Of a stretch of 64,000 nucleotides of DNA, positions 24,637 through 63,904 are shown one piece after another. The translations under genes were made by a program, and so were the position numbers. Under the pieces are notes generated by a model. That model was not told where the DNA came from. It was given only the letters and a program-made list of their open reading frames with translations, and did not search any database. Position 1 is the first letter of the stretch, and each line of letters opens with the position of its first letter. The stretch comes from Campylobacter curvus. GTDB lineage: Bacteria > Campylobacterota > Campylobacteria > Campylobacterales > Campylobacteraceae. The stretch is taken from assembly GCF_013372125.1 (NCBI RefSeq), contig NZ_CP053826.1, positions 1,860,001-1,924,000 of the forward strand, given 5' to 3'.

Positions 24637-24674
24637 GCCGGAGGTCGGGAGTTCAAGTCTCCCCCGTGACACCA
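24637..24674 (+). tRNA. tRNA-Met 3' half (attachment scar)
   Basis: Thirty-eight bases from the 3' anticodon stem through the T arm (GGGAGTTCAAGTCTCCC) and acceptor strand to CCA. The 5' half is missing: the preceding bases do not pair. The identical 38-mer is at 63860-63897 on the other strand, where CTCATAA precedes it, so tRNA-Met is the likely parent. Typical trace of an integrase using the 3' half of a tRNA gene. Confidence 0.65.
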
Positions 24675-25094
24675 AAACGCACTATTTTAGGCACTAGCAG
24701 TGATGCTTTTGTTCTTTCCCTTTCTTTAAAATTTCCTTTAAGAGTGGAACACTTAGTTGCTAAAGTGGGACAGTCTCTTAAAAATTCTAGCGATTATAAA
24801 GCCATCACCCTTTTAATACCATAAAAATAAATTTGTTTTAATTTCTACTTCTAACTTTTTATCTAAAACCTCCTTAAATACACACTTTTAACCTCCATCA
24901 TTTTAATATTTCTAATTTTTCTTTCTTAAAAAATAAACTTTTTTACAAAATTTTGCATTTCTAGCTGAAATTTTTTTCAAAATTGGTGTAATTATTATAA
25001 ATATATTTTAAAAGGATAAAAATGAAAATATTTTTATTGATAGTAACTAGCACCGCTAGCACGAGAGAAAGTTTATGTAGTGAGGTGATTTGCC
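24675..25094. other. Intergenic stretch upstream of relaxase, possible oriT
   Basis: No convincing gene. It is AT-rich. A direct repeat CTAGCAC-CG-CTAGCAC at 25047-25062, which also forms the short hairpin CTAGC-ACC-GCTAG, lies ~35 bases before the relaxase gene and is a candidate transfer origin. A 26-codon ORF (MKIFLLIVTSTAST...) begins at 25022 and overlaps the relaxase start; it may be a leader. Confidence 0.35.
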
Positions 25095-51619: not shown

Positions 51620-52513
51620 TTAATTTTTAAGGGCGTCTTGAACCGCCGGTATGACCTCATAAAGATCGCCTACTATGCCGTAATCAGCGGACTTAAATAT
51701 CCTAGCGTCAGGGTCTTTATCGACCGCTACTATTATCTTTGCACCTCTTACGCCCTCTAAATGTTGAGGAGCGCCTGAAATTCCCACCGTAAAGTAAAGC
51801 TTTGGTGAAATTTTCTGACCTGAACGTCCGATGTAGCACTCCTTTGGCATCCAGCCAAGATCGTCTGCGATCGGCATCGAGCAACTCACTTCGGCATTTA
51901 GCGCCTCTGCCAAAGACCTTATGAGCGCGATATCGTCTTTTGACTTCACGCCCCTACCAAAAGATACGACCCTAGAAGCTTCCAGTAAGCCTGATTTTTC
52001 AGAGCCTAAATTCTGGCTTTTCATATCCATTTGATAGCTCTCACCGTCAAGCGTTTTTATCTCTACGCTTGAACCGCTTGGCGCTTCGACATCTTTGCCG
52101 TCATAAAAGGCAACGACTGGTTTGTCGCTTTTTAATGTCTCTAAAACATGACCACCAAGTGCGCTTTGAGTGACGACTAGCGAGTCATTTTCAAATTTAG
52201 CCTCCGTGACATTTGGTATAGCGACCCCGTCAAGTGCCGCTGTAACGGCTCCTGCTACTATCTTCGCTCCCGGAGCGAGACTTGCTAAAACAAGCTTTGG
52301 AGCTAAATTTTTTATTTCCGCTGCCACCGCTTTTGCCTTTGACTCGGGCAAATTCGTCTCGGCGAATATCACCGAGCTAACGCCGCTAGCAGCGACTTTA
52401 TCCGCTAAATTTTTAGAACCAAGCACCACGGCGCAGACATCGCCTAAGCTTTTAGCGATATTTAACATGCCGCCAAACGGCGCTTCATCAGTTACGATCA
52501 TACAAATACTCAT
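51620..52513 (-). CDS. fixB: Electron transfer flavoprotein alpha subunit
   Basis: 297 residues. The C-terminal FAD domain is diagnostic: YIGRSGQKISPKLYFTVGISGAPQHLEG followed by VDKDPDARIFKSADYGIVGDL. Starts within the end of the beta subunit gene (4-nt overlap). Called FixB because of FixC and FixX in the same operon. Confidence 0.93.
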   Translation of the reverse strand: MSICMIVTDEAPFGGMLNIAKSLGDVCAVVLGSKNLADKVAASGVSSVIFAETNLPESKAKAVAAEIKNLAPKLVLASLAPGAKIVAGAVTAALDGVAIPNVTEAKFENDSLVVTQSALGGHVLETLKSDKPVVAFYDGKDVEAPSGSSVEIKTLDGESYQMDMKSQNLGSEKSGLLEASRVVSFGRGVKSKDDIALIRSLAEALNAEVSCSMPIADDLGWMPKECYIGRSGQKISPKLYFTVGISGAPQHLEGVRGAKIIVAVDKDPDARIFKSADYGIVGDLYEVIPAVQDALKN

Positions 52514-53247
52514 AGCAATACTCCCTCTTTTTTCAATGCATCTACTAGTTTTTTAGCCGCACTTTGTGCGTCCTCGTTAAACAGCGTAGTGTGCTTAGTC
52601 TCAGGCACGCTTAATTTAAGCGAGACGAATCTATCTTTTAGCTCCACTCCAAGCTCGGCAGAAGCGACGTTGTTTATCGGTTTTTTCCTCGCCATCAGCA
52701 TATCTTTCATGCCGGGAGCATTTTTCTCCTCGGTCTGAGCCACCACGCCAAGCACGGCTGGGGTCTTAACCGTGATGGTCTGCTCTTCGTTGCCGATATG
52801 TCTTGTAGCTACGATACTATCAGCAGTCGCGCTCGCAGAGATCACACTACCAACAGCGCTAAATCCAAGCTCGCCCGCCAAGCAGCCTGCAACCATAGGA
52901 TACGCCGCACAATCTCCTATAACGACCACATCCACATCGCCTATCTTTTTGATAGCGGCGGCTAAAATTTTAGCTACCAACGCCTGATCGTCTAAATTTG
53001 GCGCGTCAGCCACGCTGAATGTCTCTTTCACACCGCGCGCAAGTATCCAGCTAGCATCGCCGTCCCCGATGCAAACTCCGACTATATCGGCATTTGTGCC
53101 ACTTGCGATGTTTTTAGCTACCGCAAGTGCGGCAGGGTCGTCCTCTAGCGCCACCATTTTCGCACCGCGCCAATCAACGTTACCGTCACTGCGTACGACG
53201 GCTGACTCGGGGTCTCTGCCCCACTTATACACTACGGCTATTTTCAT
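52510..53247 (-). CDS. fixA: Electron transfer flavoprotein beta subunit
   Basis: 245 residues; AMP/FAD-binding ETF-beta fold: VYKWGRDPESAV at the start, EDDPAALAVAKNIA and ARKKPINNV near the end (the usual KAKKKPI region). First gene of the operon, divergent from the TetR gene. AAGGAAAACAC before the ATG. Confidence 0.9.
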   Translation of the reverse strand: MKIAVVYKWGRDPESAVVRSDGNVDWRGAKMVALEDDPAALAVAKNIASGTNADIVGVCIGDGDASWILARGVKETFSVADAPNLDDQALVAKILAAAIKKIGDVDVVVIGDCAAYPMVAGCLAGELGFSAVGSVISASATADSIVATRHIGNEEQTITVKTPAVLGVVAQTEEKNAPGMKDMLMARKKPINNVASAELGVELKDRFVSLKLSVPETKHTTLFNEDAQSAAKKLVDALKKEGVLL

Positions 53248-53316: not shown

Positions 53317-53472
53317 TTATTTAGTAGAATAGTAATCCTTTTTACATTAATTACAGCTTAAAAATTTGATTTTTTGCTAAAATTTCTGTATTTTAATAAT
53401 TAAGTCAAAAATTTTAGTAATAAATAAGCAACAATACTGTTATAATAACGCTTTTTGCATAAAGGGGACAGG

Positions 53473-54072
53473 GTGGCAAAGGTCGTAGATAAAGAACTGA
53501 TGAGAGAAAATATAATAAAAGCGGCGGTCGCAACGTTCCTAAAAAACGGTGTGAACAGCACGACGATGGAGCACATTGCAAAAGAGGCGGATATCGCAAA
53601 AGGCACTTTGTATCTGTATTTTTCATCAAAACAAGATCTAGTCTCTGCGTGCAACGTCGATCATTACACAAGCCTAAAATCGTCCTTGATACCTAAAAAA
53701 ATGCTTCCGAGCCTTGATGATTTCTTAAAACATATAGAAAAAAATCTCTTCATCAACAAAAAAAGAGCCGAATATGTAAAAATTTTCTTCGAGGCGTTTG
53801 GGGCGCAGCTAAATAGCAAAGATTTTACCGACGAATACAATCTATTTTTCGAAGAGATCGCCGCCTTTTACGAGCAAAATTTAAAATTTTTGATAGAAAA
53901 AGGTGAGGCCGACGCCGATATCGACACTTTCACACTAAGTAGAGCCATAGTCAGCATGATGGACGGACTCACCTTGCATAGAGGATTTTTCAACATCGAA
54001 AATACCAAATATAACGGCATGGTAAGAGATGCCATAGCGATGTTTAGGATGATGCTTGCTCCTAAATTTTAG
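53473..54072 (+). CDS. TetR-family regulator of the ETF operon
   Basis: N-terminal helix-turn-helix: IIKAAVATFLKNGVNSTTMEHIAKEADIAKGTLYLYFSSKQDLV (~15-60 overall). All-helical ligand domain after it. About 199 residues from GTG 53473, which has AAGGGG upstream; a TTG at 53455 is the longer alternative. Transcribed away from fixA with a palindrome in between. The inducer may be the substrate of the ETF-linked reductase. Confidence 0.88.
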   Translation: MAKVVDKELMRENIIKAAVATFLKNGVNSTTMEHIAKEADIAKGTLYLYFSSKQDLVSACNVDHYTSLKSSLIPKKMLPSLDDFLKHIEKNLFINKKRAEYVKIFFEAFGAQLNSKDFTDEYNLFFEEIAAFYEQNLKFLIEKGEADADIDTFTLSRAIVSMMDGLTLHRGFFNIENTKYNGMVRDAIAMFRMMLAPKF

Positions 54073-54153: not shown

Positions 54154-54513
54154 CTATTTTACGAGATCGTATTTGTATTGTTTGACACCGTCGGCGTTAT
54201 AGACGTCTTTGATGCCGTTTTTGTGTAAAATTTCAGCCGCTTTGCCGCTTTGTCTGCCGCTGTTGCAGTAAAGCACGACTTTTTTGCCGTCAAAATCCTT
54301 AAATTTACCAGGATTGGCCTCAATATCTTTGAGCGGGATATGCACGGCGTCTTTGATGTGCCCCTCGTTAAACTGCTCATCGACCCTCACATCGACGATC
54401 ACTGCGTCTTTTGAGCCCACTAGCTTGCTCACCTCATCGCCGCTTAGATGTCCTACCTCGTTTGCAGCGAACAAAACAACCGCACTCGCAAGTGCTAAAA
54501 GAAATTTTCTCAT
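54154..54513 (-). CDS. Exported single-domain rhodanese
   Basis: Signal peptide to about residue 17 (VVLFAANE). One rhodanese domain: VIVDVRVDEQFNEGHIKDAVHIPL and the active-site loop YCNSGRQSG with the catalytic Cys. 119 residues. Acts in the periplasm on sulfur-containing substrates. Probably separate from the arsenic operon although adjacent. Confidence 0.88.
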   Translation of the reverse strand: MRKFLLALASAVVLFAANEVGHLSGDEVSKLVGSKDAVIVDVRVDEQFNEGHIKDAVHIPLKDIEANPGKFKDFDGKKVVLYCNSGRQSGKAAEILHKNGIKDVYNADGVKQYKYDLVK

Positions 54514-54628: not shown

Positions 54629-55690
54629 TTAGCAGCAGCAAGACCCGCCTTCGCACGCGCCCCCGTCTGCACCAGATGAGCCGCCACTGCAGTCAAACGG
54701 CCCAAAGTGCTTGCTCCTGTCGCCGTGTATCTCAAAATATTTGCCAAATCTAGTCACCTCGACCATCGCGCATGTATTTCCGCACACGCTCATCGGCAAG
54801 TCTTTGAAAAAGCGGTGATGATCGTCGAGGTCAAAGTAAAATTTAGCCCCTACCATGCCGCCTTTGTAGGTCGCAAACTGCCCGTATTGCTCGCAGATGT
54901 CTTCCATCAGATCGGGGATCTTGATGGCTCTAACGGTACGCGAAGTGAAATTTATATTTTCTATCAGATCTTCGATTTCTTCGTTATCTATCGTGGCTTT
55001 TGCGGTAGAAACGTATCTAAAATCGCTCCAACCGACCTTGCTCATCAGCCGCCTAAAATCCTCCACATACATAGCTCCACCCAGGCACTCTCCGCGCAAA
55101 ACAGGATCGTTTGAGATCTCCTCAGGCACGCGGCGATCGGCGAAAATATCGGAAAAATATAGCTCGCCGCCTCGCTTTAACACGCGCCAAATTTCGCTAA
55201 AAACACTTTGCTTGCACGGAGATAAATTTATCACGCAGTTTGATACGACCACATCGACGCTGGCGTCTTTGATGCCTAGGCTCGCTAGATCTTCGATGTA
55301 GCCTTGTAAAAATTCTACGTTTGATCTTTTATAGCCGAATTTCTTCGCCATCTCGTCTTGATATTTTCTGGCGATAGCCAGCTGATCTTCGTTCATATCC
55401 ACACCGATGACCCTGCCGCTCTCGCCCACTAGACGCGAGAGGATATACACATCAAGCCCGGTGCCGCAGCCAAGGTCAAGCACCGTGCAACCCTCTAACG
55501 CAGGCGGTATCGGCGAGCCGCAGCCGTAAAATCTCTGCACGATCTCATCCGGGATCATCGCCCTGATCTCCTTTAAATGGCGCGGTAAATTTTCAGCCGC
55601 GCAAGAGCAAATTTTAGTCTCCATTTTGCCCGCATTTTCTTTGGTAACCTTACTGTAATACTCTTTTACCTGTTCTCTGATGTCACTCAT
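54629..55690 (-). CDS. arsM: Arsenite S-adenosylmethionine methyltransferase
   Basis: Methylates As(III). SAM motif VLDLGCGTGLDVYILSRLVG (~70). Cys residues known to bind arsenite are in positions consistent with ArsM: KICSCAAENLP near the N-terminus, SNCVINLSP in the middle and RGECLGGAMYVEDF. The C-terminus (PMSVCGNTCAMVEV...) ends in a Cys-rich tail GGSCCC. 353 residues. Last gene of the arsenic operon. AAAGGAGAAAACG before the ATG. Confidence 0.93.
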   Translation of the reverse strand: MSDIREQVKEYYSKVTKENAGKMETKICSCAAENLPRHLKEIRAMIPDEIVQRFYGCGSPIPPALEGCTVLDLGCGTGLDVYILSRLVGESGRVIGVDMNEDQLAIARKYQDEMAKKFGYKRSNVEFLQGYIEDLASLGIKDASVDVVVSNCVINLSPCKQSVFSEIWRVLKRGGELYFSDIFADRRVPEEISNDPVLRGECLGGAMYVEDFRRLMSKVGWSDFRYVSTAKATIDNEEIEDLIENINFTSRTVRAIKIPDLMEDICEQYGQFATYKGGMVGAKFYFDLDDHHRFFKDLPMSVCGNTCAMVEVTRFGKYFEIHGDRSKHFGPFDCSGGSSGADGGACEGGSCCC

Positions 55691-55776
55691 CGTTTTCTCC
55701 TTTGGATTAAATTTTAATTTGAAAAAGTGTCAATACCCTTAAACGAACGCTTCGCAAATCTTATTTACTCCGCAAA

Positions 55777-55860
55777 GCGCCGAACATGTAGCACGATTTT
55801 CGCGGTCAGCCTTATGGCTTCCTTGAAAATCGGCGGCGATAGCGTCGCTACATAAGATTT
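55777..55860 (+). repeat. Dispersed intergenic repeat, copy C
   Basis: CGCCGAACATGTAGCACGAT ... CGCGGTCAGC ... AAAATCGGCGGCGATAGCGT. Same order as copy A with few differences. Sits in the 230-bp gap that separates arsM from the rest of the arsenic operon. Confidence 0.7.
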
Positions 55861-55920
55861 GGCTACGCTATAACGTTTTAAATTTTAAAAATCAACACTT
55901 TTAAAACATAGCCTATAAAT

Positions 55921-56751
55921 TCATATATTGCAACTATTGTTCTTTTTGTCCGTTACGTGTAGCGGCTCGATCACTTTGGTGAAAAACAGCGACGCGAGCA
56001 GCCCGCCTATCATCGGCGCTAGCGCATAAACGTAAAGAACGTCCCACGAAAAGGCCTCTTTAAAACCCACCAAAAATGCCACCACGCGCGGCCCCATATC
56101 TCTTGCTGGATTTAGCCCCGCGTCCGTCATCGGCCCTACGACTGCGATGATGCACGTGACCGTTAGCCCGATGAAAAGCGGGAAAAGGTCGTTGCTAGGG
56201 CGTCCCAGGTTGCAGCTTTCGGTCATGCAAAATATAACCATCACCAGCACAAACACGCCAAGCCCCTCGGCAAACGCCGCAACATTGGTGCTTATCACGC
56301 CTTTGGCAGTGTTTGGATAGACCTCGCACCAGATGCTATAAGCGGCGCTTTTTGCCTCCATCGTAGCACTCGCAGCGCTTAGAGCAGCCTGCACGCTATC
56401 TGCGAAAAATATCCAAAGCACGAAGCCAGCCAGTATCGCGCCCACAAACTGAGCGACGACGTAAAGCGGGAAATTTATCCACGAGCACCTGCCGCTAGCG
56501 CACATCGCAAAGGTAACGGCGGGATTAAAATGCGCCGCAGAGAGGTTTCTGGTCGCGTAGATCGCTATGGCGATGGCTAGACCCCATATCATGCCTACCT
56601 GAAAGGGCCCCGTATGCGCGCCGTAAAGCGTCGCCGTCGCCACCGCACCGATACCAAAAAAGCACATCAAAAACGTGCCGATGATCTCGCCCACGGCCTG
56701 CTTTAAAAAGATCGCCCTACTGACCGCACCGCAATCACAACTTGTATCCAT
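55921..56751 (-). CDS. MIP-family aquaglyceroporin (arsenic operon)
   Basis: Six membrane segments and both channel motifs: HFNPAVTF (first NPA) and GLNPARDMGPR (second NPA). The second motif followed by D-MGPR fits glycerol-type channels. 276 residues. Cys-rich N-terminus MDTSCDCG, unusual for the family. In arsenic operons such channels (AqpS-like) let arsenite or methylarsenicals pass. AAAGGATTTTT before the ATG. Confidence 0.9.
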   Translation of the reverse strand: MDTSCDCGAVSRAIFLKQAVGEIIGTFLMCFFGIGAVATATLYGAHTGPFQVGMIWGLAIAIAIYATRNLSAAHFNPAVTFAMCASGRCSWINFPLYVVAQFVGAILAGFVLWIFFADSVQAALSAASATMEAKSAAYSIWCEVYPNTAKGVISTNVAAFAEGLGVFVLVMVIFCMTESCNLGRPSNDLFPLFIGLTVTCIIAVVGPMTDAGLNPARDMGPRVVAFLVGFKEAFSWDVLYVYALAPMIGGLLASLFFTKVIEPLHVTDKKNNSCNI

Positions 56752-56810
56752 AAAAATCCTTTGTATTAATCTGTCTTAACTAAGACCTAAATTTAGCTCT
56801 CCAAGCCCGC

Positions 56811-57290
56811 CTACTTCGCATCGCCTAAGATCTCGTCTAAAATTTCGATGCAGTCTCTTACGACGCAAGGACAGACGCTTTTAAATAGCCCGCGCTTTTG
56901 AATCTGCGCCATTTCGTCCGGTTTGCTTAGATCAAAGCCCAAAATTTCGCGGCAAATTTTTGAATTCCATTTTTTAAAATACGCACTTTGAAATTCTGCC
57001 AACTTGGCTTCAAATTTCGCCTTCTCTTCACCAAATTTAAGCCCCAAAACAAGCACCGCCGCCAGATACGTATCGCACGTCAGTCCCTCTCGCAGCCCGC
57101 CGCCAAGCCCTGCTCCAAGGCAAATCGCGCGTTTTTCGTCTAAATTTAACGCTCCTGCGTATCGCTCGAAAAGCACCTGCGCGCAGTTTATTTGGCTAAA
57201 TTTCGCCGCGATCTGCTCGGTCGTGAGCTTTTGTAAATTTCGCGCGCCAGCCACACCCTCCGACTTCGCCGCCTTCATATCAGCCCTCAT
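56811..57290 (-). CDS. C_GCAxxG_C_C family redox protein
   Basis: About 159 residues containing the family's Cys order: a first Cys in QINCAQVLFERY, then AICLGAGLGGGLREGLTCDTYLAAVL, and CREILGF plus CPCVVRDCIEIL at the end. The family is a putative membrane- or Fe-S-related redox protein common next to arsenosugar genes. ATGA overlap with arsS. Confidence 0.8.
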   Translation of the reverse strand: MRADMKAAKSEGVAGARNLQKLTTEQIAAKFSQINCAQVLFERYAGALNLDEKRAICLGAGLGGGLREGLTCDTYLAAVLVLGLKFGEEKAKFEAKLAEFQSAYFKKWNSKICREILGFDLSKPDEMAQIQKRGLFKSVCPCVVRDCIEILDEILGDAK

Positions 57291-58216
57291 GCTATCGCTC
57301 CGCCGCAGCTGCTTCCAGCCCCCGCCGTGCAGGCATAGCAGTAGTCGCGAAACACGATCTCGCGCGAAAGCTCTTGCGCGCTGGCAAGCTCAAAAATATC
57401 GCGCACGCCGTTTGCTTTTAAATCCAGCATTTGATTGAAGTCGCAGTCGTAAAGCGAGCCGTCGTAAGCAACTGAAATTTGGCTACGGCACATGATGTTT
57501 TGCGCGGCGCAGGGGTTGAAATTTGCTTCCAACAAGCTCATATAGCTTTCCAGCTCGCCGTGGTTTTGTAGCGCGGTCTTAAAGCGGCCGATCGGCAAAT
57601 TCGTAATAGTAAAAAGATGAGAAAATTCCACGCCAAAGCCCTCTTTTAGCTCGCGTTTGTAGTCTTTTTCAAGTCCCGCTTGATCGCCTGGCAAAAAAGC
57701 GCCGCCCGGGTTATAGACTAAATTTAAGCTCAAATTTTTACCATATCCAAGCGCGTTTAAAATTTTTAAAACCTTTATCGAGCCCTCAAATACGCCGTTG
57801 CCGCGCATTTTATCGGTGTTTTCTTTGGTGTAGCAAGGCAGGCTGGCGACCAGCTCCACGCCCTTATCCGCGTAAAATTTTGGCAAGTCCTCGTAGCCCT
57901 TTTCAAGCAAAATGACTAAATTCGTGCGCACGATGACGCGCGGGACGATTTTTACCGCTTCGCTAACGAGCCAGCGAAAATTCGCGTTCATCTCAGGTGC
58001 GCCGCCCGTGATGTCAAGGGTGCTGAATTTATGCCTTTTTAGCGCCTCAACGACCGCCTGCGCAACCTCGCGGCTCATCGTCTCGGTGCGATTTGGCGAT
58101 GCGCCGACGTGGCAGTGATGACAGGCGAGGTTGCAAATTTTGCCGACGTTTATTTGAAGCGTCGTGATCTCGCTCGTGCGTTTAAACTCGGGCGCGATCC
58201 TTTCGGTGAATTTCAT
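57287..58216 (-). CDS. arsS: Arsenosugar biosynthesis radical SAM protein ArsS
   Basis: Radical SAM enzyme thought to add the SAM-derived adenosyl group to dimethylarsenite. CxxxCxxC is CNLACHHC, preceded by TLQINVGKI. TGGAPEMN is the SAM-binding loop. The DUF3641-type C-terminal half carries CAAQNIMCRSQISV, YDCDFNQMLDL and CYACTAGAGSSCGG. 309 residues. Overlaps neighbours by ATGA on both sides. Confidence 0.93.
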   Translation of the reverse strand: MKFTERIAPEFKRTSEITTLQINVGKICNLACHHCHVGASPNRTETMSREVAQAVVEALKRHKFSTLDITGGAPEMNANFRWLVSEAVKIVPRVIVRTNLVILLEKGYEDLPKFYADKGVELVASLPCYTKENTDKMRGNGVFEGSIKVLKILNALGYGKNLSLNLVYNPGGAFLPGDQAGLEKDYKRELKEGFGVEFSHLFTITNLPIGRFKTALQNHGELESYMSLLEANFNPCAAQNIMCRSQISVAYDGSLYDCDFNQMLDLKANGVRDIFELASAQELSREIVFRDYCYACTAGAGSSCGGAIA

Positions 58217-59178
58217 TTCCTGCTCCTTTTATAAAATTTTAATCCGAGCACGTTTTTTAGGTAGCTTAAATTTGGCGATTCATTGACGCCTAACATATAG
58301 CTAGCCACGTGCTTGACGTTTTTACAGCCGTTTTTGGCGAAATTTCCCGCACACGTCGCGCAGTAGGTATAGATGTTTGGCGTGTTTTTATTGCGCACGG
58401 TGATTGGGTATTGCTTGGCGATCTCGGGCTCTTCGCCGCGCGCCAGCCCGCCAAGCCCACAGCAATTAACGTCTTTGAAACTTTCCTTTTTATTTTTTAT
58501 GCGGTGCGCCATGGTGTTAAAAATTTCGCGCCCGTTGCGCTCGGGACAGGGGAAAAACATATGCGCCTCCTCTTCGATGTCCGCTGCAAGCCCTAGCTCC
58601 TCGTATTTCTCATAAAGCGTTTTTATCTTCACGCTTACCTTGTCCTTTAAAAAATGATAGCAGTTTGGACAGGCGCAGATGAGCGTCTCCACGCCCTTTG
58701 CCGCAAAGAGCTCGTCAAGGTGCTTTTTGGTCTCGTCAAAATACCCGCGGTGCGCCTCGTATAGCGGCTTGCCGCAGCAATCGATACTAAAATCGATCCC
58801 CGCTTCGCCAAAAATTTCGATGATCTTTCGCGTCGTTTTTGGATAATATCCCGTGAAATTGCAGCCAAAAAACACGAGCTCGCGGCTTTGTTTGGGCGAA
58901 TTGTTCGCGAAAAGATAGGGCGATTTTTGAAAATTTAGATACCTAAACGGCTTTGGGGCCAGGTCGCGTAAATTTAGCGCGATCTCGTTGCCGCTGATGT
59001 CTTTTGGGCAGACTTGGTAGCATTTGTCGCACAAAAAGCAGCTATACGCGAGATCCGGGCGCTTGGAGAAGTCCAGTAAATTTATGTCGTATTTGGTTAA
59101 AAACTCGCATTTTTTCGTGCATGCCCCGCAGTCAATGCACATCTGGGGCGGGTTTTTAGTAGTCTTTGGCGATCTCAT
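58213..59178 (-). CDS. CCG-domain (heterodisulfide reductase-like) iron-sulfur protein
   Basis: Two ferredoxin clusters at the N-terminus (CIDCGACTKKC, CFLCDKCYQVC) and two CCG domains (IDCCGKPLY, VNCCGLGGLARG), with CPNCYHF and YCATCAGNF. About 321 residues from ATG 59178, with AAAAGG upstream; a longer start at 59208 lacks a binding site. Probably a redox partner of ArsS or of arsenic reduction. Between the glycosyltransferase and arsS genes. Confidence 0.82.
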   Translation of the reverse strand: MRSPKTTKNPPQMCIDCGACTKKCEFLTKYDINLLDFSKRPDLAYSCFLCDKCYQVCPKDISGNEIALNLRDLAPKPFRYLNFQKSPYLFANNSPKQSRELVFFGCNFTGYYPKTTRKIIEIFGEAGIDFSIDCCGKPLYEAHRGYFDETKKHLDELFAAKGVETLICACPNCYHFLKDKVSVKIKTLYEKYEELGLAADIEEEAHMFFPCPERNGREIFNTMAHRIKNKKESFKDVNCCGLGGLARGEEPEIAKQYPITVRNKNTPNIYTYCATCAGNFAKNGCKNVKHVASYMLGVNESPNLSYLKNVLGLKFYKRSRK

Positions 59179-59845
59179 CAGCTGCCTTTTGCGCGCCCTT
59201 TGCGCCATACACGCTTAGCGCGCGCCTAAATTTGTATTGGAATTTTTGCATTTTCATTAGCGTTCTTAGCGTCCCTTCTTTTTTAAATTTTCGCGCGCTC
59301 GTGGTGATTTGCTCGCTTATTTGATGAAATTTCACGCCCACTTTTTTTAGCCTTAGGCTAAGCTCGAAATCCTCCATTATAGGGATCTGCTCAAAGCCGC
59401 CAAGCTGCGTGAAAAAATCCTTTCGCACGAAGATGCCTTGATCTCCAAATGCGATATTTCTAAATTTCACGCGCAAATTCGCACACGTGGCTATCAAATT
59501 TAACCAAACGCCGCCCTCGTCAAATTTCATCTCAAAGCAGCCTATCTGGCACTTTTCTAGCGCCGCCTCCGCCGCTAGAAGCGCACTCTCGCTTTTAAAT
59601 TTACTATCGGCGTGCAAAAATAAAATTTTTTCAAATTTTGCTACGCGTGCGCCTAAATTTTGCTGCGCGCCCCTGCCCTTTGGCGAGGCCAGCATGGCAA
59701 ATCCACCCAAATCCCTATCTTCACTCACGCCACCATCGACAAATATCGCTTCAAACTCGCCCCTTTGCTTTTTTAGCTCGCGCACGATGTTTTCCAGCAC
59801 CGCGGGGCTTTCGTTATAGATCGGGATCACGACCGAGATCGCCAT
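59156..59845 (-). CDS. TIGR04283-type arsenosugar glycosyltransferase
   Basis: Family 2 glycosyltransferase, 229 residues. VVIPIYNESPAVLENIV at the N-terminus, EAIFVDGGVSEDRDLGGFAML, SPKGRGAQQNLGARVAKFEKILFLHADS (DxD region) and FGDQGIFVRKDFFTQLGGF are typical of the family seen in arsenosugar clusters. Overlaps both neighbours. Likely attaches or modifies the sugar part. Confidence 0.87.
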   Translation of the reverse strand: MAISVVIPIYNESPAVLENIVRELKKQRGEFEAIFVDGGVSEDRDLGGFAMLASPKGRGAQQNLGARVAKFEKILFLHADSKFKSESALLAAEAALEKCQIGCFEMKFDEGGVWLNLIATCANLRVKFRNIAFGDQGIFVRKDFFTQLGGFEQIPIMEDFELSLRLKKVGVKFHQISEQITTSARKFKKEGTLRTLMKMQKFQYKFRRALSVYGAKGAQKAADEIAKDY

Positions 59846-60470
59846 TTTTAGCCCTCAGTTTCTTTGCGCCCCAGCTTGAAAGTACGACTAGTAGCACCAT
59901 CAGCACGCAGGCAAACGCAAATTCAAACGATTTTACATCAAGCACCTTATCGCCTAAATTTACCATTATAAATGTCGCTGGCACGATGCCTACAAAGGTC
60001 GCCCCCGCGTAGTCTTTTAGGCTCACGTTTATTAGCCCGCAAGCGTAGTTTAGCGCGTTATAGGGCACTAAGGGCATGAGGCGCAGTATCAAGATAAGGA
60101 CGAATTTATTTACGCTTTTATCTAGCTTGGCTAAAAAATTATCGCTCCTGCCTATAAAATTTGAAACGCTTTTAAAGCCCAAAAATCGCGCGATATAAAA
60201 CATCAAAATGGAATTTATCATCGCGCCGACGATCGTATAGACGCTGCCCCAAACGAGCCCGAACATCGCTCCTGCGACTACTGCAAGGATCGGCACGGGA
60301 AATAAAAATATCGGCAAGATCGCAAAGCACGCGATATAAACGATCGGCGCATAGATGCCATATCCGCCCACAAAGCCTTTTAGTTCGCTCACGCCGACGC
60401 GGTTTAAAAGATACGCGCCAAAAGCTATGATGAGCAGGACAGCCGCGATTTTAAGTATTTTGCTCGCCAA
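59814..60470 (-). CDS. TVP38/TMEM64-family membrane protein 1
   Basis: Five to six membrane helices. The DedA/VTT core reads VAGAMFGLVWGSVYTIVGAMINSILMFYIARFLG and PYNALNYACGLINVSLKDYAGATFVGIVPATF. 218 residues. One of two such proteins in the operon; they may move lipid or polar intermediates across the membrane. Confidence 0.87.
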   Translation of the reverse strand: MASKILKIAAVLLIIAFGAYLLNRVGVSELKGFVGGYGIYAPIVYIACFAILPIFLFPVPILAVVAGAMFGLVWGSVYTIVGAMINSILMFYIARFLGFKSVSNFIGRSDNFLAKLDKSVNKFVLILILRLMPLVPYNALNYACGLINVSLKDYAGATFVGIVPATFIMVNLGDKVLDVKSFEFAFACVLMVLLVVLSSWGAKKLRAKNGDLGRDPDL

Positions 60471-61155
60471 GCTTTTTCGCCTTGCGATCTTTTAGGATAT
60501 TTTTAGCCACATAGACCACGATAGAGAAGGCAAACATCATCATCAGCCCCCAAAATAGCACGCTGGCCGTGCCAAAAATGCTCTGACCAAAATACGAATA
60601 TACAAGCGTAGCCGGAAGCTGCCCTAAGCCAGTCGCCCAGAAAAACGACCAAAATCTCATCGACGTGAGCCCCGCTGCGTAGCTAACCAGATCAAAGCTC
60701 ACAAACGGCAGCAAGCGACATACCATGATCGTGTGCTTGCCGTATTTGGTGAAGTATTCATCGGTCGCTTGAAGTGCTCTTTTGCCCGTGATCTTCTCGA
60801 CCACATCGCGACCTAAGATCCTAGCGATATAAAAGCACATCGCAGCCCCGACCATCGCCGAGCTCCACGACAGCAAGGCACCCCACGCCCAGCCAAAGAT
60901 GAGAGCGTTTGAAAGAGTGATCAAAAATGCCGGCACGGGCGCGATGATACTTTGCAAGATCATCAAAAAAAAGCTAACGACCGCGATCACGTCCTTATGC
61001 TCGTAGCTTTGCAAGTAGTGATAGACGGCGTTTAGATCAAACGAGCTAAGCGTAGATACCGAGCTATCGATGTATGATTTCACGCTTGGCACGAAAAAAT
61101 AGATAGCGGCAATGGCGATAACCACTACCAGCAACGCGATTTGAGATTTCTTCAT
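60451..61155 (-). CDS. TVP38/TMEM64-family membrane protein 2
   Basis: 234 residues. VTT core: NALIFGWAWGALLSWSSAMVGAAMCFYIARILGRD and CRLLPFVSFDLVSYAAGLTSMRFWSFFWATGLGQLPATL. Differs clearly from the other TVP38 protein, so a divergent duplication or two separate families. Overlaps the previous ORF by 20 nt. Confidence 0.87.
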   Translation of the reverse strand: MKKSQIALLVVVIAIAAIYFFVPSVKSYIDSSVSTLSSFDLNAVYHYLQSYEHKDVIAVVSFFLMILQSIIAPVPAFLITLSNALIFGWAWGALLSWSSAMVGAAMCFYIARILGRDVVEKITGKRALQATDEYFTKYGKHTIMVCRLLPFVSFDLVSYAAGLTSMRFWSFFWATGLGQLPATLVYSYFGQSIFGTASVLFWGLMMMFAFSIVVYVAKNILKDRKAKKLGEQNT

Positions 61156-62660
61156 GAAATGTCCTTTAAAAAAATTGATATGTTCGATAAAAACTTATCG
61201 CTTAAATACTCCTTTATCTTTGCGTAGGTCGCGGCGTTTTTGATAGCGCGAGCGCCCTGATACTCGGTGTATGCCATCGCGCACCAGCTAAGCCCGCGAA
61301 AGCAAGTCATTGCCAGGTATTCGTTAAATTTCGTCCTATCGACGCTAAGGAATTTTTCGTATTCATTTAAGAAATTTTGCATTTCATTAAAATTTAAGAT
61401 GACGTCCGTTTTCCAAAACGTCGTAGTCGGGGCTAAAAAGTGCGCCAAGTCTTGCTCCTTTTCGCCTACGATCGGCTTTTCCCAGTCGATGACGTAGCTT
61501 TGCGCGCCCTCGTTTATCAAAAAATTTCCGGAATTTAGCTCGGTGTTGATGATACGAGGCTCGCTTATCTCGCGGCTTAAATTTAGCCCGCCCAGCCGCT
61601 CCTCTAGCCACGATAAAAATTCGCTCGCGTTTTTGCTTTTAAATTTCGATCCGTGATAAATTCGCGCCATTTTCCCGCACTCCGTCATCATCGCAGCTAG
61701 CGGCTTGCGAGCGATCAAAAATTTATGCTTTTTAGGAAGCGGCACGCTGTGAATGCGCACTAAAAGCTGCGCCGCGGTTTTTAGATCCCGCCTATAATCA
61801 AGCGCGCGCCCGGGCAAAAACTCCATACTCATCGCCCCGCGCGGTAAAAACGGGCTTGGCGCGAAATATTCGTACGCTTTTGGCGTCACACCCGAGCTTT
61901 CAAGCACTTTTAGCGCGTCAAATTCGTATTTGACCTGGTGCTTCAGCCCGATTTGAGATTTTGTGTTTATGCGAAAAACAAGGCTCGCGCCGCGCTTTTT
62001 AATTTTATAGTTGATGTTGTATTCGCCGCTAGCTAGCGCGCTGAGGCGGCGCACACGCAAAACGTGAGCGAAGATGTCCTCTTTGGTGTCGATGTCGCGA
62101 AGTGAGGCGAAAGACTTAAAGCTTAAATTTAGCTCGTTAAATTTAGCGCAGATGCCCTTATAGACGTTTTTTGCGTCACTGTAATCGCTGCTAAAAATCT
62201 CATCTTTTATCTCTTTTAGCCCGATGAGCGCGTATCCGCCATCAAGCGTAGGATCTATCACGACGTCGTTTGTATCAAGTGCGTCAAAACACTCGCAAAT
62301 TCGGCGTGCGCGTAAATTTACGATGTCGCTGCCAAGTAGTAAAATTTTCTCAAAGCCAAGCAATTTTACAAATTTAAACGCATTTAGCATCCTAATCGCC
62401 AGATCGCCCTCGCTTTGCGCGTGATAAAGCCACTCCTCGCCTAAAATTTCACGTAAAATTTCGCCCTCGCCCTTTGGTGTGAAAAATACGAAAATTTGCG
62501 TGTTTGTTAGCTTTTTCAGCTCTAAATTTATCTCGCCGATAAGATGAGCGTGTAGCCTCGTAGCCTCGCGCGGACTTAGGAAATCAAGTAGCCTAGTTTT
62601 GGTCTTTTTAGGTAGCGGCACTCTGGTGAAAAGTATCACCGCATTTTTTGCGTCACTCAT
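61152..62660 (-). CDS. TIGR04282-type transferase fused to a phosphotransferase-like domain
   Basis: Residues ~1-205 form the DUF2064/TIGR04282 transferase found in arsenosugar clusters: ILFTRVPLPKKTKTRLLDFL, ILLLGSDIVNL, DPTLDGGYALIGL, LRDIDTKED. From ~210 the protein looks like an aminoglycoside/choline-kinase-type domain: GEYNINYKI, EFLPGR, INTELNSGNFLI where HxDxxxxN is usual, and YVIDWEKP for the DxD site. The catalytic Asp position holds Glu, so kinase activity is uncertain. 502 residues. Could join activation and transfer of a sugar or alcohol. Confidence 0.82.
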   Translation of the reverse strand: MSDAKNAVILFTRVPLPKKTKTRLLDFLSPREATRLHAHLIGEINLELKKLTNTQIFVFFTPKGEGEILREILGEEWLYHAQSEGDLAIRMLNAFKFVKLLGFEKILLLGSDIVNLRARRICECFDALDTNDVVIDPTLDGGYALIGLKEIKDEIFSSDYSDAKNVYKGICAKFNELNLSFKSFASLRDIDTKEDIFAHVLRVRRLSALASGEYNINYKIKKRGASLVFRINTKSQIGLKHQVKYEFDALKVLESSGVTPKAYEYFAPSPFLPRGAMSMEFLPGRALDYRRDLKTAAQLLVRIHSVPLPKKHKFLIARKPLAAMMTECGKMARIYHGSKFKSKNASEFLSWLEERLGGLNLSREISEPRIINTELNSGNFLINEGAQSYVIDWEKPIVGEKEQDLAHFLAPTTTFWKTDVILNFNEMQNFLNEYEKFLSVDRTKFNEYLAMTCFRGLSWCAMAYTEYQGARAIKNAATYAKIKEYLSDKFLSNISIFLKDIS

Positions 62661-63031
62661 TTTGACCTGCGGGGTAAAATTTTAAACAGCGCAAAGCAAT
62701 TAAACGCAAGCAAAAGCCCTAAAAATGCGCACTTTATCTGCGAAAATGAAAAGGCGTCCAGATAGGTTTCTTTGATGTTGTAGTAGATCAAATTTTGCTT
62801 ATCCATCAAAAACGCAAGCAAAAATAGCAAAATTTCACAGATAAACAGGGCTGAAATTTTGGCATTTTTCTTAAAAAACGAGTAGATGACGCCAAGTATC
62901 AGTGCGCCGACGACGATGTATCTGTTGTGGATACGCATCTCCAGCCACACTGAAAGCGAAGCTAAAAGCGTCGCGCTAAGCCCGAGGAGCATAGCGCAAA
63001 ACGCGTAATAAACGGCTAGAAAAATTTTCAT
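62657..63031 (-). CDS. Small membrane protein of the arsenic operon
   Basis: 124 residues with four membrane helices and a basic tail PRRSK. No family recognised. ATGA overlaps on both sides show that it belongs to the operon. Confidence 0.7.
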   Translation of the reverse strand: MKIFLAVYYAFCAMLLGLSATLLASLSVWLEMRIHNRYIVVGALILGVIYSFFKKNAKISALFICEILLFLLAFLMDKQNLIYYNIKETYLDAFSFSQIKCAFLGLLLAFNCFALFKILPRRSK

Positions 63032-63681
63032 TGAGCGAGTTTGAAGCTGATAGCCACGTATGTGCCGTCTTTTGGCAACACGTCTTTTTTACCGTGAAAT
63101 ACGACTTCGTTGCGTTTCTCGACCGCGCCGTTTGTGTAGGTGTGATTTGAGATGATACCTACAGGGCAGCTATCCAGGCAGGCTAAGCAGCCAGTATTGA
63201 AGCTCATCGCGTTGGCTTCGTTGCCGCCAAATCTCATATCGATCGGCTTACCGTTGCTGTCAGAGATGACCTCGTTGATGTCGTAGGTCTTTGGCGCGCC
63301 GTCCCAAGTGACGCTGATATTGATCTTATCGCCCTCTACTTGCGTCTCAGCAGCGTTTTTAGGCGTCATATTGTTGCCTGGTTTGCCGCCGATTTGTATC
63401 AAAGCTTTGTAAAAATCGTTTTGATTTGCCTCGGAGATGAAAACCGGTTTCTCGCCGAATTTGCCGCCCTTAAAAACCACTGCATGGCGCGTATTTTCGT
63501 CAAGATACTTGCCATTTACCTTTGCAAGGACAGTGATAGTCTTGCTCGCCTCGTCGATGACAAGCGGGGTTTGGGTGCTTACGACACCGACTTTTACGTT
63601 CTCTTTTGGAGTATTGTCCTCGCCGCAACCGACGAAGAATAGCCCGCAAACAGCTATGAAAATAGCCATTTTCTTAAACAT
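63028..63681 (-). CDS. YdjY-domain lipoprotein with CxxC motifs, first gene of arsenic operon
   Basis: Lipoprotein signal with lipobox LFFVGCGED (Cys19). A YdjY-like beta domain: VLAKVNGKYLDENTRHAVVF and FYKALIQIGGKPGNN. A Cys pair motif CLACLDSCPVGI follows near 165-175 and could bind a metal, an Fe-S cluster or arsenic. 217 residues. Upstream 180 bp is AT-rich without a gene; the operon promoter is expected there. Confidence 0.8.
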   Translation of the reverse strand: MFKKMAIFIAVCGLFFVGCGEDNTPKENVKVGVVSTQTPLVIDEASKTITVLAKVNGKYLDENTRHAVVFKGGKFGEKPVFISEANQNDFYKALIQIGGKPGNNMTPKNAAETQVEGDKINISVTWDGAPKTYDINEVISDSNGKPIDMRFGGNEANAMSFNTGCLACLDSCPVGIISNHTYTNGAVEKRNEVVFHGKKDVLPKDGTYVAISFKLAQ

Positions 63682-63859
63682 GGTAACACCTTTAAAATGA
63701 AATTTGACAATCTAAAATTTACAGAAATTTGAATAATTTTTGTAAAAGTAATAGGCGAACTCGCCCCATGAAATTTTGCGGATTATAACCTCTAAAATCT
63801 TAAATACATATAAAAATATCATCTAAAACGATAGGTAAAAACAGGAGAAAATAGGCAGT
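63682..63859. other. Presumed promoter region of the arsenic operon
   Basis: AT-rich, no ORF of note. I could not fix a single -10 box or an operator with confidence. No ArsR gene is adjacent. Confidence 0.3.
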
Positions 63860-63904
63860 TGGTGTCACGGGGGAGACTTGAACTCCCGACCTCCGGCTTA
63901 TGAG
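63860..63904 (-). tRNA. tRNA-Met 3' half with anticodon loop (attachment scar)
   Basis: Minus strand: loop CTCATAA (CAT anticodon), stem GCCGG, variable AGGTC, T arm GGGAGTTCAAGTCTCCC, acceptor, CCA. Bases 5' of the loop do not pair with GCCGG, so the 5' half is missing. The 38 bases after the loop equal 24637-24674. Likely the end of another integrated element that continues past 64000. Confidence 0.65.

Follow-up and report, generated by a model that had tools for sequence, protein, structure and literature searches.

A 64,000-nt stretch of the Campylobacter curvus genome (bases 1860001-1924000 of the single-contig, 1.97-Mb genome; hereafter the window, to whose own positions all window coordinates refer) carries, at 54629-63681 on the minus strand, a candidate operon for making an arsenic-carrying ribose derivative, built around the radical SAM enzyme ArsS. 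A first-pass annotation had described ten genes here, nearly all overlapping. By open reading frame (ORF) inspection and family scans there are 11 genes in total, and nine of them, from a YdjY lipoprotein to a C_GCAxxG protein, do overlap, with eight junctions of 4, 4, 4, 20, 32, 53, 4, and 4 nt; the other two, for a MIP channel and the As(III) methyltransferase ArsM, stand behind gaps of 59 nt and then 230 nt, and another 115 nt lead from ArsM to a rhodanese gene. Every gene named in that annotation, ArsM and ArsS included, is present on this strand, most of them above curated cut-offs, while a 124-aa protein, an APH domain fused to TIGR04282, and the downstream rhodanese had been overlooked. 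From the spacing, we infer that the operon genes are cotranscribed.

The first gene of the operon encodes the YdjY-domain lipoprotein (217 aa; 63028-63681; NF040466, 158.6 bits against a cut-off of 50), for which a Pfam scan gave no match, and the second a putative membrane protein of 124 aa that is known as an ORF (62657-63031) and matched nothing in NCBIfam or Pfam at E 0.001. The third is a 502-aa protein (61152-62660) in which a TIGR04282 domain (residues 8-196; 152.9 bits, cut-off 134) is fused to an APH-type kinase-like domain (about residues 206-411; PF01636). Two VTT/TVP38 membrane proteins follow (60451-61155, 102.3 bits to PF09335; and 59814-60470, with a TTG start, 90.7 bits; cut-off 33.9), then a TIGR04283 family-2 glycosyltransferase (59156-59845; 198.6 bits, cut-off 182), a 331-aa CCG-domain Fe-S protein (58213-59208; PF02754, 39.3 bits, cut-off 20.6), ArsS (57287-58216; TIGR04167, 443.6 bits, cut-off 300), and, as the last overlapping gene, the C_GCAxxG_C_C protein (56811-57290; PF09719, 66 bits, cut-off 27), which scores 41.4 to TIGR01909, below the cut-off of 47.4. 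Beyond the gaps lie the aquaglyceroporin-like MIP channel (55921-56751; PF00230, 146.7 bits, cut-off 25; 162.4 to TIGR00861, below its cut-off of 171.25) and the 353-aa ArsM (54629-55690). The rhodanese (119 aa with a signal-like start; 54154-54513, minus strand; PF00581, 67.7 bits) is probably a member of the system.

In ArsS, the motif C28xxxC32xxC35 and Cys243, Cys258, Cys293, Cys296, and Cys304 are invariant across 11 alignment rows, and the Cys-rich C-terminal domain matches PF12345 (DUF3641) with 184.9 bits. ArsM falls below every NCBIfam ArsM model listed (the best being NF008823, 190.8 against 263; NF038099 gives 117.3 against 400), and its assignment comes from a profile match: the profile of a 14-row alignment that includes the window protein (A3) retrieves the ArsM structures 5evj (5e-92) and 4fr0 (5e-88). 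Cys28, Cys57, Cys152, and Cys202 are invariant in all 14 rows, and we take them to be the conserved cysteines of the long ArsM class.

The gene set was then compared across 298 genomes of the window's phylum, Campylobacterota, 38 of them from the window's genus (G and L numbers below are genome and locus labels of this comparison set, and f10 is the label of a family within the window's order). ArsS scores above the TIGR04167 cut-off in 12 of the 298, six of these being among the 38, and in 10 of the 12 the 20-kb stretch around it holds an overlapping core made up of the TIGR04282-APH fusion, both VTT proteins, TIGR04283, the CCG protein, ArsS, the C_GCAxxG protein, and the rhodanese. This recurrence exceeds chance. 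YdjY is found at eight of the ten core loci and the 124-aa protein at six; at the core locus of G020 the VTT pair lies 2 to 2.5 kb away. In the other two genomes, G167 and G195, ArsS is fused to other domains (in G195, to ArsM) and TIGR04282 is located elsewhere in the genome. The first-pass annotation had suggested such a comparison, with genes unlinked elsewhere as grounds for giving up its arsenosugar reading; core gene order turned out to be largely conserved and the core genes linked, so the core escapes that objection. In two genomes, G079 and G169, ArsS is of a distant type, only 41-42% identical to that of the window, while other core proteins are 52-74% identical, apart from the C_GCAxxG protein of G169 at only 34%, a pattern that suggests replacement of ArsS itself. 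This distant-lineage ArsS sits in an otherwise kept operon at L047 9688-10587 and L046 9605-10492, in L047 upstream of YdjY.

The idea that the membrane and transferase genes form one system with ArsS is borne out by the distribution of TIGR04282, which occurs among the 298 genomes only alongside ArsS or a radical-SAM/ArsM fusion. A profile of the TIGR04282-APH protein (A5; E <= 1e-20) finds 23 genomes, ten with full-length fusions, all ArsS-positive and identical to the ten core loci, and 13 in which just the TIGR04282 part is matched. The set of 23 coincides exactly with the 12 ArsS genomes and, in addition, 11 f10 genomes that encode a radical-SAM/ArsM/DUF5714 fusion of about 995 aa (L186 10934-13921), a protein present in exactly these 11 of the 298 and split into two frames in G056. 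Beside it, TIGR04282 is fused to TIGR04283 at all 11 loci, and the CCG protein and at least one VTT protein are present at ten. The f10 cassette is a second arsenic cassette, one without a TIGR04167 ArsS. The TIGR04282-TIGR04283 fusion was seen in L186 and in L068, and Lachnospiraceae loci add further links among the families, with a VTT-TIGR04282 fusion (L111 7125-8540) and the fusion of L068 (10867-12330).

ArsM and the aquaglyceroporin-like channel, which had been counted among the operon genes, do not belong to its conserved part. The window's ArsM is the sole full-length match in the 153 genomes of its family, the other 152 having no full-length counterpart (another genus has weaker matches to part of the protein in two genomes, the frames being 991 and 262 aa long), and a strong match is absent from 10 of the 12 ArsS genomes, the exceptions being G195 and the window genome itself; three of the rest reach 18-21 bits. 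ArsM as a core member is ruled out by this rarity. The other 11 ArsS loci showed no MIP channel within their 20-kb stretches, channels not having been sought genome-wide; the window's is 44-45% identical to one encoded next to the radical-SAM/ArsM fusion in L191 and L195. The gaps of 59 and 230 nt that set these two genes apart from the overlapping core would also suit plain detoxification, in which ArsM makes volatile or exported methylarsenicals next to an unrelated redox and envelope operon upstream. We consider this highly improbable, as ArsS, which has no known role in methylarsenical export, lies inside the core, and in G195 ArsM is fused to it.

To see how ArsM and ArsS are associated beyond the phylum, we used the best 80 of 587 ArsS loci, those most like the query, a set that leans towards window-like ArsS. 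ArsM lies near ArsS at 23 of the 80; in the genomes of the other 57, of which 50 were requested and 49 searched genome-wide, it is found elsewhere in 24 and has no match at E <= 1e-20 in 25. The latter include named strains, e.g., Muricomes intestini and Psychrobacter cibarius, as well as metagenome assemblies whose gaps could hide an ArsM. Mapped onto a 92-row ArsS tree in which the state of 84 rows is known, the presence of ArsM requires a minimum of 22 changes, against a mean of 27 in shuffles, and 13 of 500 shuffles reach as low a number. The distribution is slightly clustered, but ArsM appears and disappears repeatedly while ArsS stays in place. Separate clades of ArsM-bearing and ArsM-less ArsS are ruled out by these changes. 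Three ArsM-like matches carry one in-frame TGA (G330:C6:63612-64307, in the genome of L111; G325:C29:24371-24928; and G303:C295:31162-31689) and are possible selenoproteins.

The same observations (an ArsM unique in its family, ten ArsS-positive phylum genomes lacking a strong match, and the repeated changes on the tree) could mean that the core acts on a substrate other than arsenic and that its association with ArsM and the channel in this strain is fortuitous. That explanation seems quite unlikely to us: the f10 radical-SAM/ArsM fusion keeps the same partners, ArsS is retained while ArsM varies among close relatives, e.g., in Psychrobacter, and the window's ArsS shares 76% identity with that of its nearest ArsM-less relatives.

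What the ArsM-less genomes of the phylum do share is a second gene pair. An SSS-type symporter and a phosphoesterase-like protein are encoded within the 20-kb stretch in nine of the ten ArsM-less ArsS genomes; the tenth, G020, has neither ArsM nor the phosphoesterase-like protein, and in G167 the latter is fused to the N-terminal side of ArsS. The phosphoesterase-like protein occurs in nine of the 298 genomes, all nine ArsS-positive. Among TIGR04282 genomes, it is present in 9/10 without ArsM and 0/13 with ArsM (p 1e-5, uncorrected for kinship), and among the 12 ArsS genomes alone the exclusion gives p 0.045. That ArsM and this pair exclude each other is seen only within the phylum and reflects few independent events. 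A strict replacement of ArsM by the pair everywhere is ruled out, since Flavobacterium L125 and Flagellimonas L136 have both and G020 has neither. In these two Flavobacteriaceae, related pairs lie beside ArsS, with SusC, SusD, SSS, and phosphoesterase-like genes in line with it (L136 2379-9761 and L125 11657-18483; SusC and SusD assigned by family in L125 and by size in L136), which suggests an outer-membrane uptake system feeding the pathway.

Between the two phyla, the symporters share 43-44% identity. Their family matches are weak, L039 scoring 28.2 to PF00474 (cut-off 22.8) and L043 and L044 matching nothing in Pfam, and the symporter profile matches symporters of choline, urea, and glucose no more strongly than 1e-7. 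The phosphoesterase-like protein matches PF12850 with 43.0 bits in L125 and 42.8 in L136 (cut-off 27), stands at the cut-off in L039, and gives no match in L044; in L136 it is fused to a TIGR04169 'arsenosugar-associated' domain. In all eight alignment rows GGxYxN replaces the first metal motif of calcineurin-like phosphoesterases, which we take to be DxH, and a CGC motif is invariant. In ArsM-less relatives, the pair may supply a ready-made arsenical.

The first-pass annotation had called both TIGR04282 and TIGR04283 transferases, which is probably wrong for the former. The window protein exceeds the Pfam cut-off for CofC nucleotidyltransferases (PF01983, 31.3 against 22) and also matches PF09837 (84.4, cut-off 25.8) and, in its second domain, PF01636 (53.8, cut-off 23.2), with 35.7 to the CofC model TIGR03552, below that model's cut-off of 105. 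Lys21, Arg23, Leu24, Gly110, Asp112, Asp189, and Asp191 are invariant over 14 rows; they form KTRL-type, GSD, and DID motifs, presumably the CofC-like nucleotidyltransferase motifs. By these matches and residues, the TIGR04282 domain is probably a nucleotidyltransferase and not a glycosyltransferase. An APH- or methylthioribose-kinase-group kinase is present in all 23 TIGR04282 genomes, fused in ten, adjacent in 12, and unlinked in one. The adjacent ones are methylthioribose kinase (MTRK)-like proteins that directly neighbor the TIGR04282-TIGR04283 fusion in 12/12 loci (the 11 f10 loci and G195); they are divergent, with 149-220 bits to TIGR01767 (cut-off 275), and the four examined retain HGD. 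Typical MtnK proteins (470-505 bits) occur in 13 genomes, all without TIGR04282, while the unlinked kinase of G167, at 302 bits, is over the cut-off and so perhaps an ordinary MtnK. The window's APH domain as an MtnK orthologue is ruled out by the family scan and a weak profile comparison.

A simpler account would be a plain arsenosugar operon, with ArsM as an integral member, TIGR04282 and TIGR04283 both as glycosyltransferases, and the APH domain as incidental. The NCBIfam names of both families and the ArsM genes near ArsS at 23/80 loci, or elsewhere in 24/49 further genomes, speak for it. We nevertheless regard it as unlikely, given that a strong ArsM match is missing from 10/12 ArsS genomes of the phylum and any at E <= 1e-20 from 25/49 of the others, that the kinase-like domain is fused at 10/10 core loci, and that TIGR04282 matches CofC nucleotidyltransferases.

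Outside the phylum, profiles of the two kinase types found no match in the 80 ArsS loci; conversely, the phosphorylase profile found nothing in 24 loci of the phylum, phosphorylases not having been sought genome-wide in the 11 fusion genomes. A nucleoside phosphorylase is encoded less than 5 kb from ArsS at 22 of these loci, in many phyla, and at 5-10 kb in one, an excess near ArsS with a binomial p of 2e-5 (DNA covered, 720 against 611 kb-sides); 19 of the 22 also have TIGR04282. Among 21 clustered phosphorylases, seven bear an MTAP-like motif and 14 a PNP-like one, and one of each was confirmed by family model (MTAP, 327 bits, cut-off 275; PNP, 341.9 bits, cut-off 218). In each of the 12 ArsS genomes of the phylum, a single protein, of the size of the nucleosidase MTAN, matches PF01048 strongly (163-187 bits), other matches being weak (<40 bits), and that of the window genome is MTAN (172.3 bits, cut-off 73.8). 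Methionine salvage uses two known routes from a 5-substituted adenosine to a 5-substituted ribose-1-phosphate, namely a nucleosidase followed by a kinase, or a phosphorylase. The alternation of kinase and phosphorylase beside ArsS and TIGR04282 is what one would expect if the ArsS product were processed in this way for a nucleoside diphosphate (NDP)-sugar step by TIGR04282.

ArsM and ArsS carry out the known first steps of arsenosugar synthesis (PMC12159101, PMC8552651). Building on these, we give about an even chance to the reading that the operon serves the biosynthesis of a ribose derivative carrying arsenic, with a conserved core to which ArsM and the aquaglyceroporin were added later, enabling a start from inorganic arsenite. 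Arsenite would be taken up, perhaps through the MIP channel, and methylated by ArsM, to judge by its family; ArsS, by a family activity established elsewhere, would add a 5'-deoxyadenosyl group to the dimethylated arsenic. The genome's MTA/SAH nucleosidase may then cut off adenine to leave 5-arsenoribose, carbon 1 of which the APH domain may phosphorylate, as methylthioribose kinase does; a phosphorylase, where present, would yield the 1-phosphate directly, making the kinase unnecessary. The TIGR04282 domain, as a putative nucleotidyltransferase, would turn 5-arsenoribose-1-phosphate into NDP-arsenoribose, the donor for sugar transfer by TIGR04283 onto an acceptor that might be glycerol or a lipid. 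The two VTT proteins might flip or export the product, with YdjY, the CCG and C_GCAxxG proteins, and the rhodanese handling redox. We hold somewhat more tentatively the wider proposal that bacterial arsenosugars are made via nucleotide-activated arsenoribose, by either cleavage route and with TIGR04282 and TIGR04283, also in ArsM-less bacteria that would import the methylated arsenic of others through the SSS symporter and its CGC-bearing partner.

Several points weigh against these proposals. The genomes are related, so that gene counts are non-independent events. TIGR04282 is named a glycosyltransferase by NCBI, and its sole solved relative found, 3cgx, is labelled a putative nucleotide-diphospho-sugar transferase. 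The window's APH domain has no catalytic Asp, the HxD motif being N372-T373-E374 in nine of nine aligned proteins; the Glu could act as the base, or the domain could catalyze another reaction or serve in binding. The domain has no TIGR01767 match, the window genome has none at E <= 1e-10, and the comparison of the APH domain with the MTRK profile is weak (probability 27.8). As to the 80 cross-phylum loci, 31 have neither TIGR04282 nor TIGR04283 and most have neither phosphorylase nor kinase in the fetched flanks, which is as far as these searches went into the genomes. Lastly, a strong ArsM match is missing from 10 of the 23 genomes with TIGR04282, and in these the case for arsenic as the substrate is therefore unproven.

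An exact 46-bp copy of the end of a tRNA-Met gene lies about 180 nt upstream of YdjY (63859-63904; G000:C1:1957623-1957668; associated sites at L202 512-2653), the intact tRNA-Met being about 34 kb off, and next to the copy starts a putative phage-type integrase of 713 aa, recognized by reading the sequence alone; a further tRNA-Met copy, of 39 bp, is found at 24637-24675. The operon seems to be bordered by an integrated element, and a position inside that element is ruled out, its end repeat being about 180 nt outside the operon. On the other side, the nearest regulator is of the TetR type (53455-54072, plus strand; PF00440, 60 bits), beside two genes at 51620-53247 that look, from their sequence, like electron transfer flavoprotein subunits. 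Promoter-like matches (16 against 15.0 in shuffles) and terminator-like matches (21 against 17.8) were near shuffle level.

Among known systems, an ArsM/ArsS arsenosugar pathway is reported from Synechocystis (Xue 2019 and Cheng 2021, both as cited in PMC8552651 and PMC12159101). The window is alike in having ArsM and ArsS, the latter in TIGR04167, the NCBIfam model named for that ArsS role; it differs in that its ArsM is an add-on and its core contains the TIGR04282-APH fusion, TIGR04283, two VTT proteins, the CCG and C_GCAxxG proteins, YdjY, and the rhodanese. NCBI already names TIGR04282, TIGR04283, TIGR04167, and TIGR04169 after arsenosugars. In Bacteroidota clusters (with TIGR04169 peroxidase-like, NF038099 ArsM, PNP, and TIGR04282 proteins), ArsS often occurs with TIGR04282 and ArsM, as here, but a phosphorylase often takes the place of the kinase, and no YdjY/CCG core is marked in the Bacteroidota loci surveyed. 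The f10 cassette shares the VTT, CCG, and TIGR04282-TIGR04283 components but its ArsM is fused to a radical SAM enzyme of another kind, and its MTRK-like kinase is free-standing, with an intact HGD in the four examined. Methionine salvage (MTAN with MtnK, or MTAP) follows the same logic, although the family scan does not identify the APH domain of the window as MtnK and its catalytic loop is changed. AmgK and MurU are an anomeric kinase and nucleotidyltransferase pair in which an APH-fold kinase feeds the nucleotidyltransferase; in the window the kinase and nucleotidyltransferase would be one protein, with arsenoribose as the presumed substrate. Some DedA/VTT proteins are described as undecaprenyl phosphate flippases or phospholipid scramblases (PMC10127716), and such a role, if shared by the window's two, would fit a lipid-linked product. 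For the steps after the ArsS product, the relevant passages of a review offer only a proposed adenosyl nucleosidase and a synthase for an algal arsenolipid (PMC10456119).

Among the Creative Commons (CC)-licensed PubMed Central (PMC) literature matches listed, none gives TIGR04282, TIGR04283, a methylthioribose kinase, or a nucleoside phosphorylase a part in making arsenosugars. Nor does any of them report that kinase and phosphorylase alternate, that TIGR04282 acts as a nucleotidyltransferase, that the core occurs without ArsM, or that a symporter is paired with a phosphoesterase-like protein, all of which are apparently new. For the question of how bacteria activate arsenic sugars, for which no published gene was found among those same matches, the comparison points to a possible route, and it names candidate proteins for the steps after the ArsS product, from cleavage and phosphorylation to nucleotidyl activation and transfer. 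Arsenosugar synthesis may not need an ArsM of its own, and surveys that use arsM as a marker could therefore miss it.

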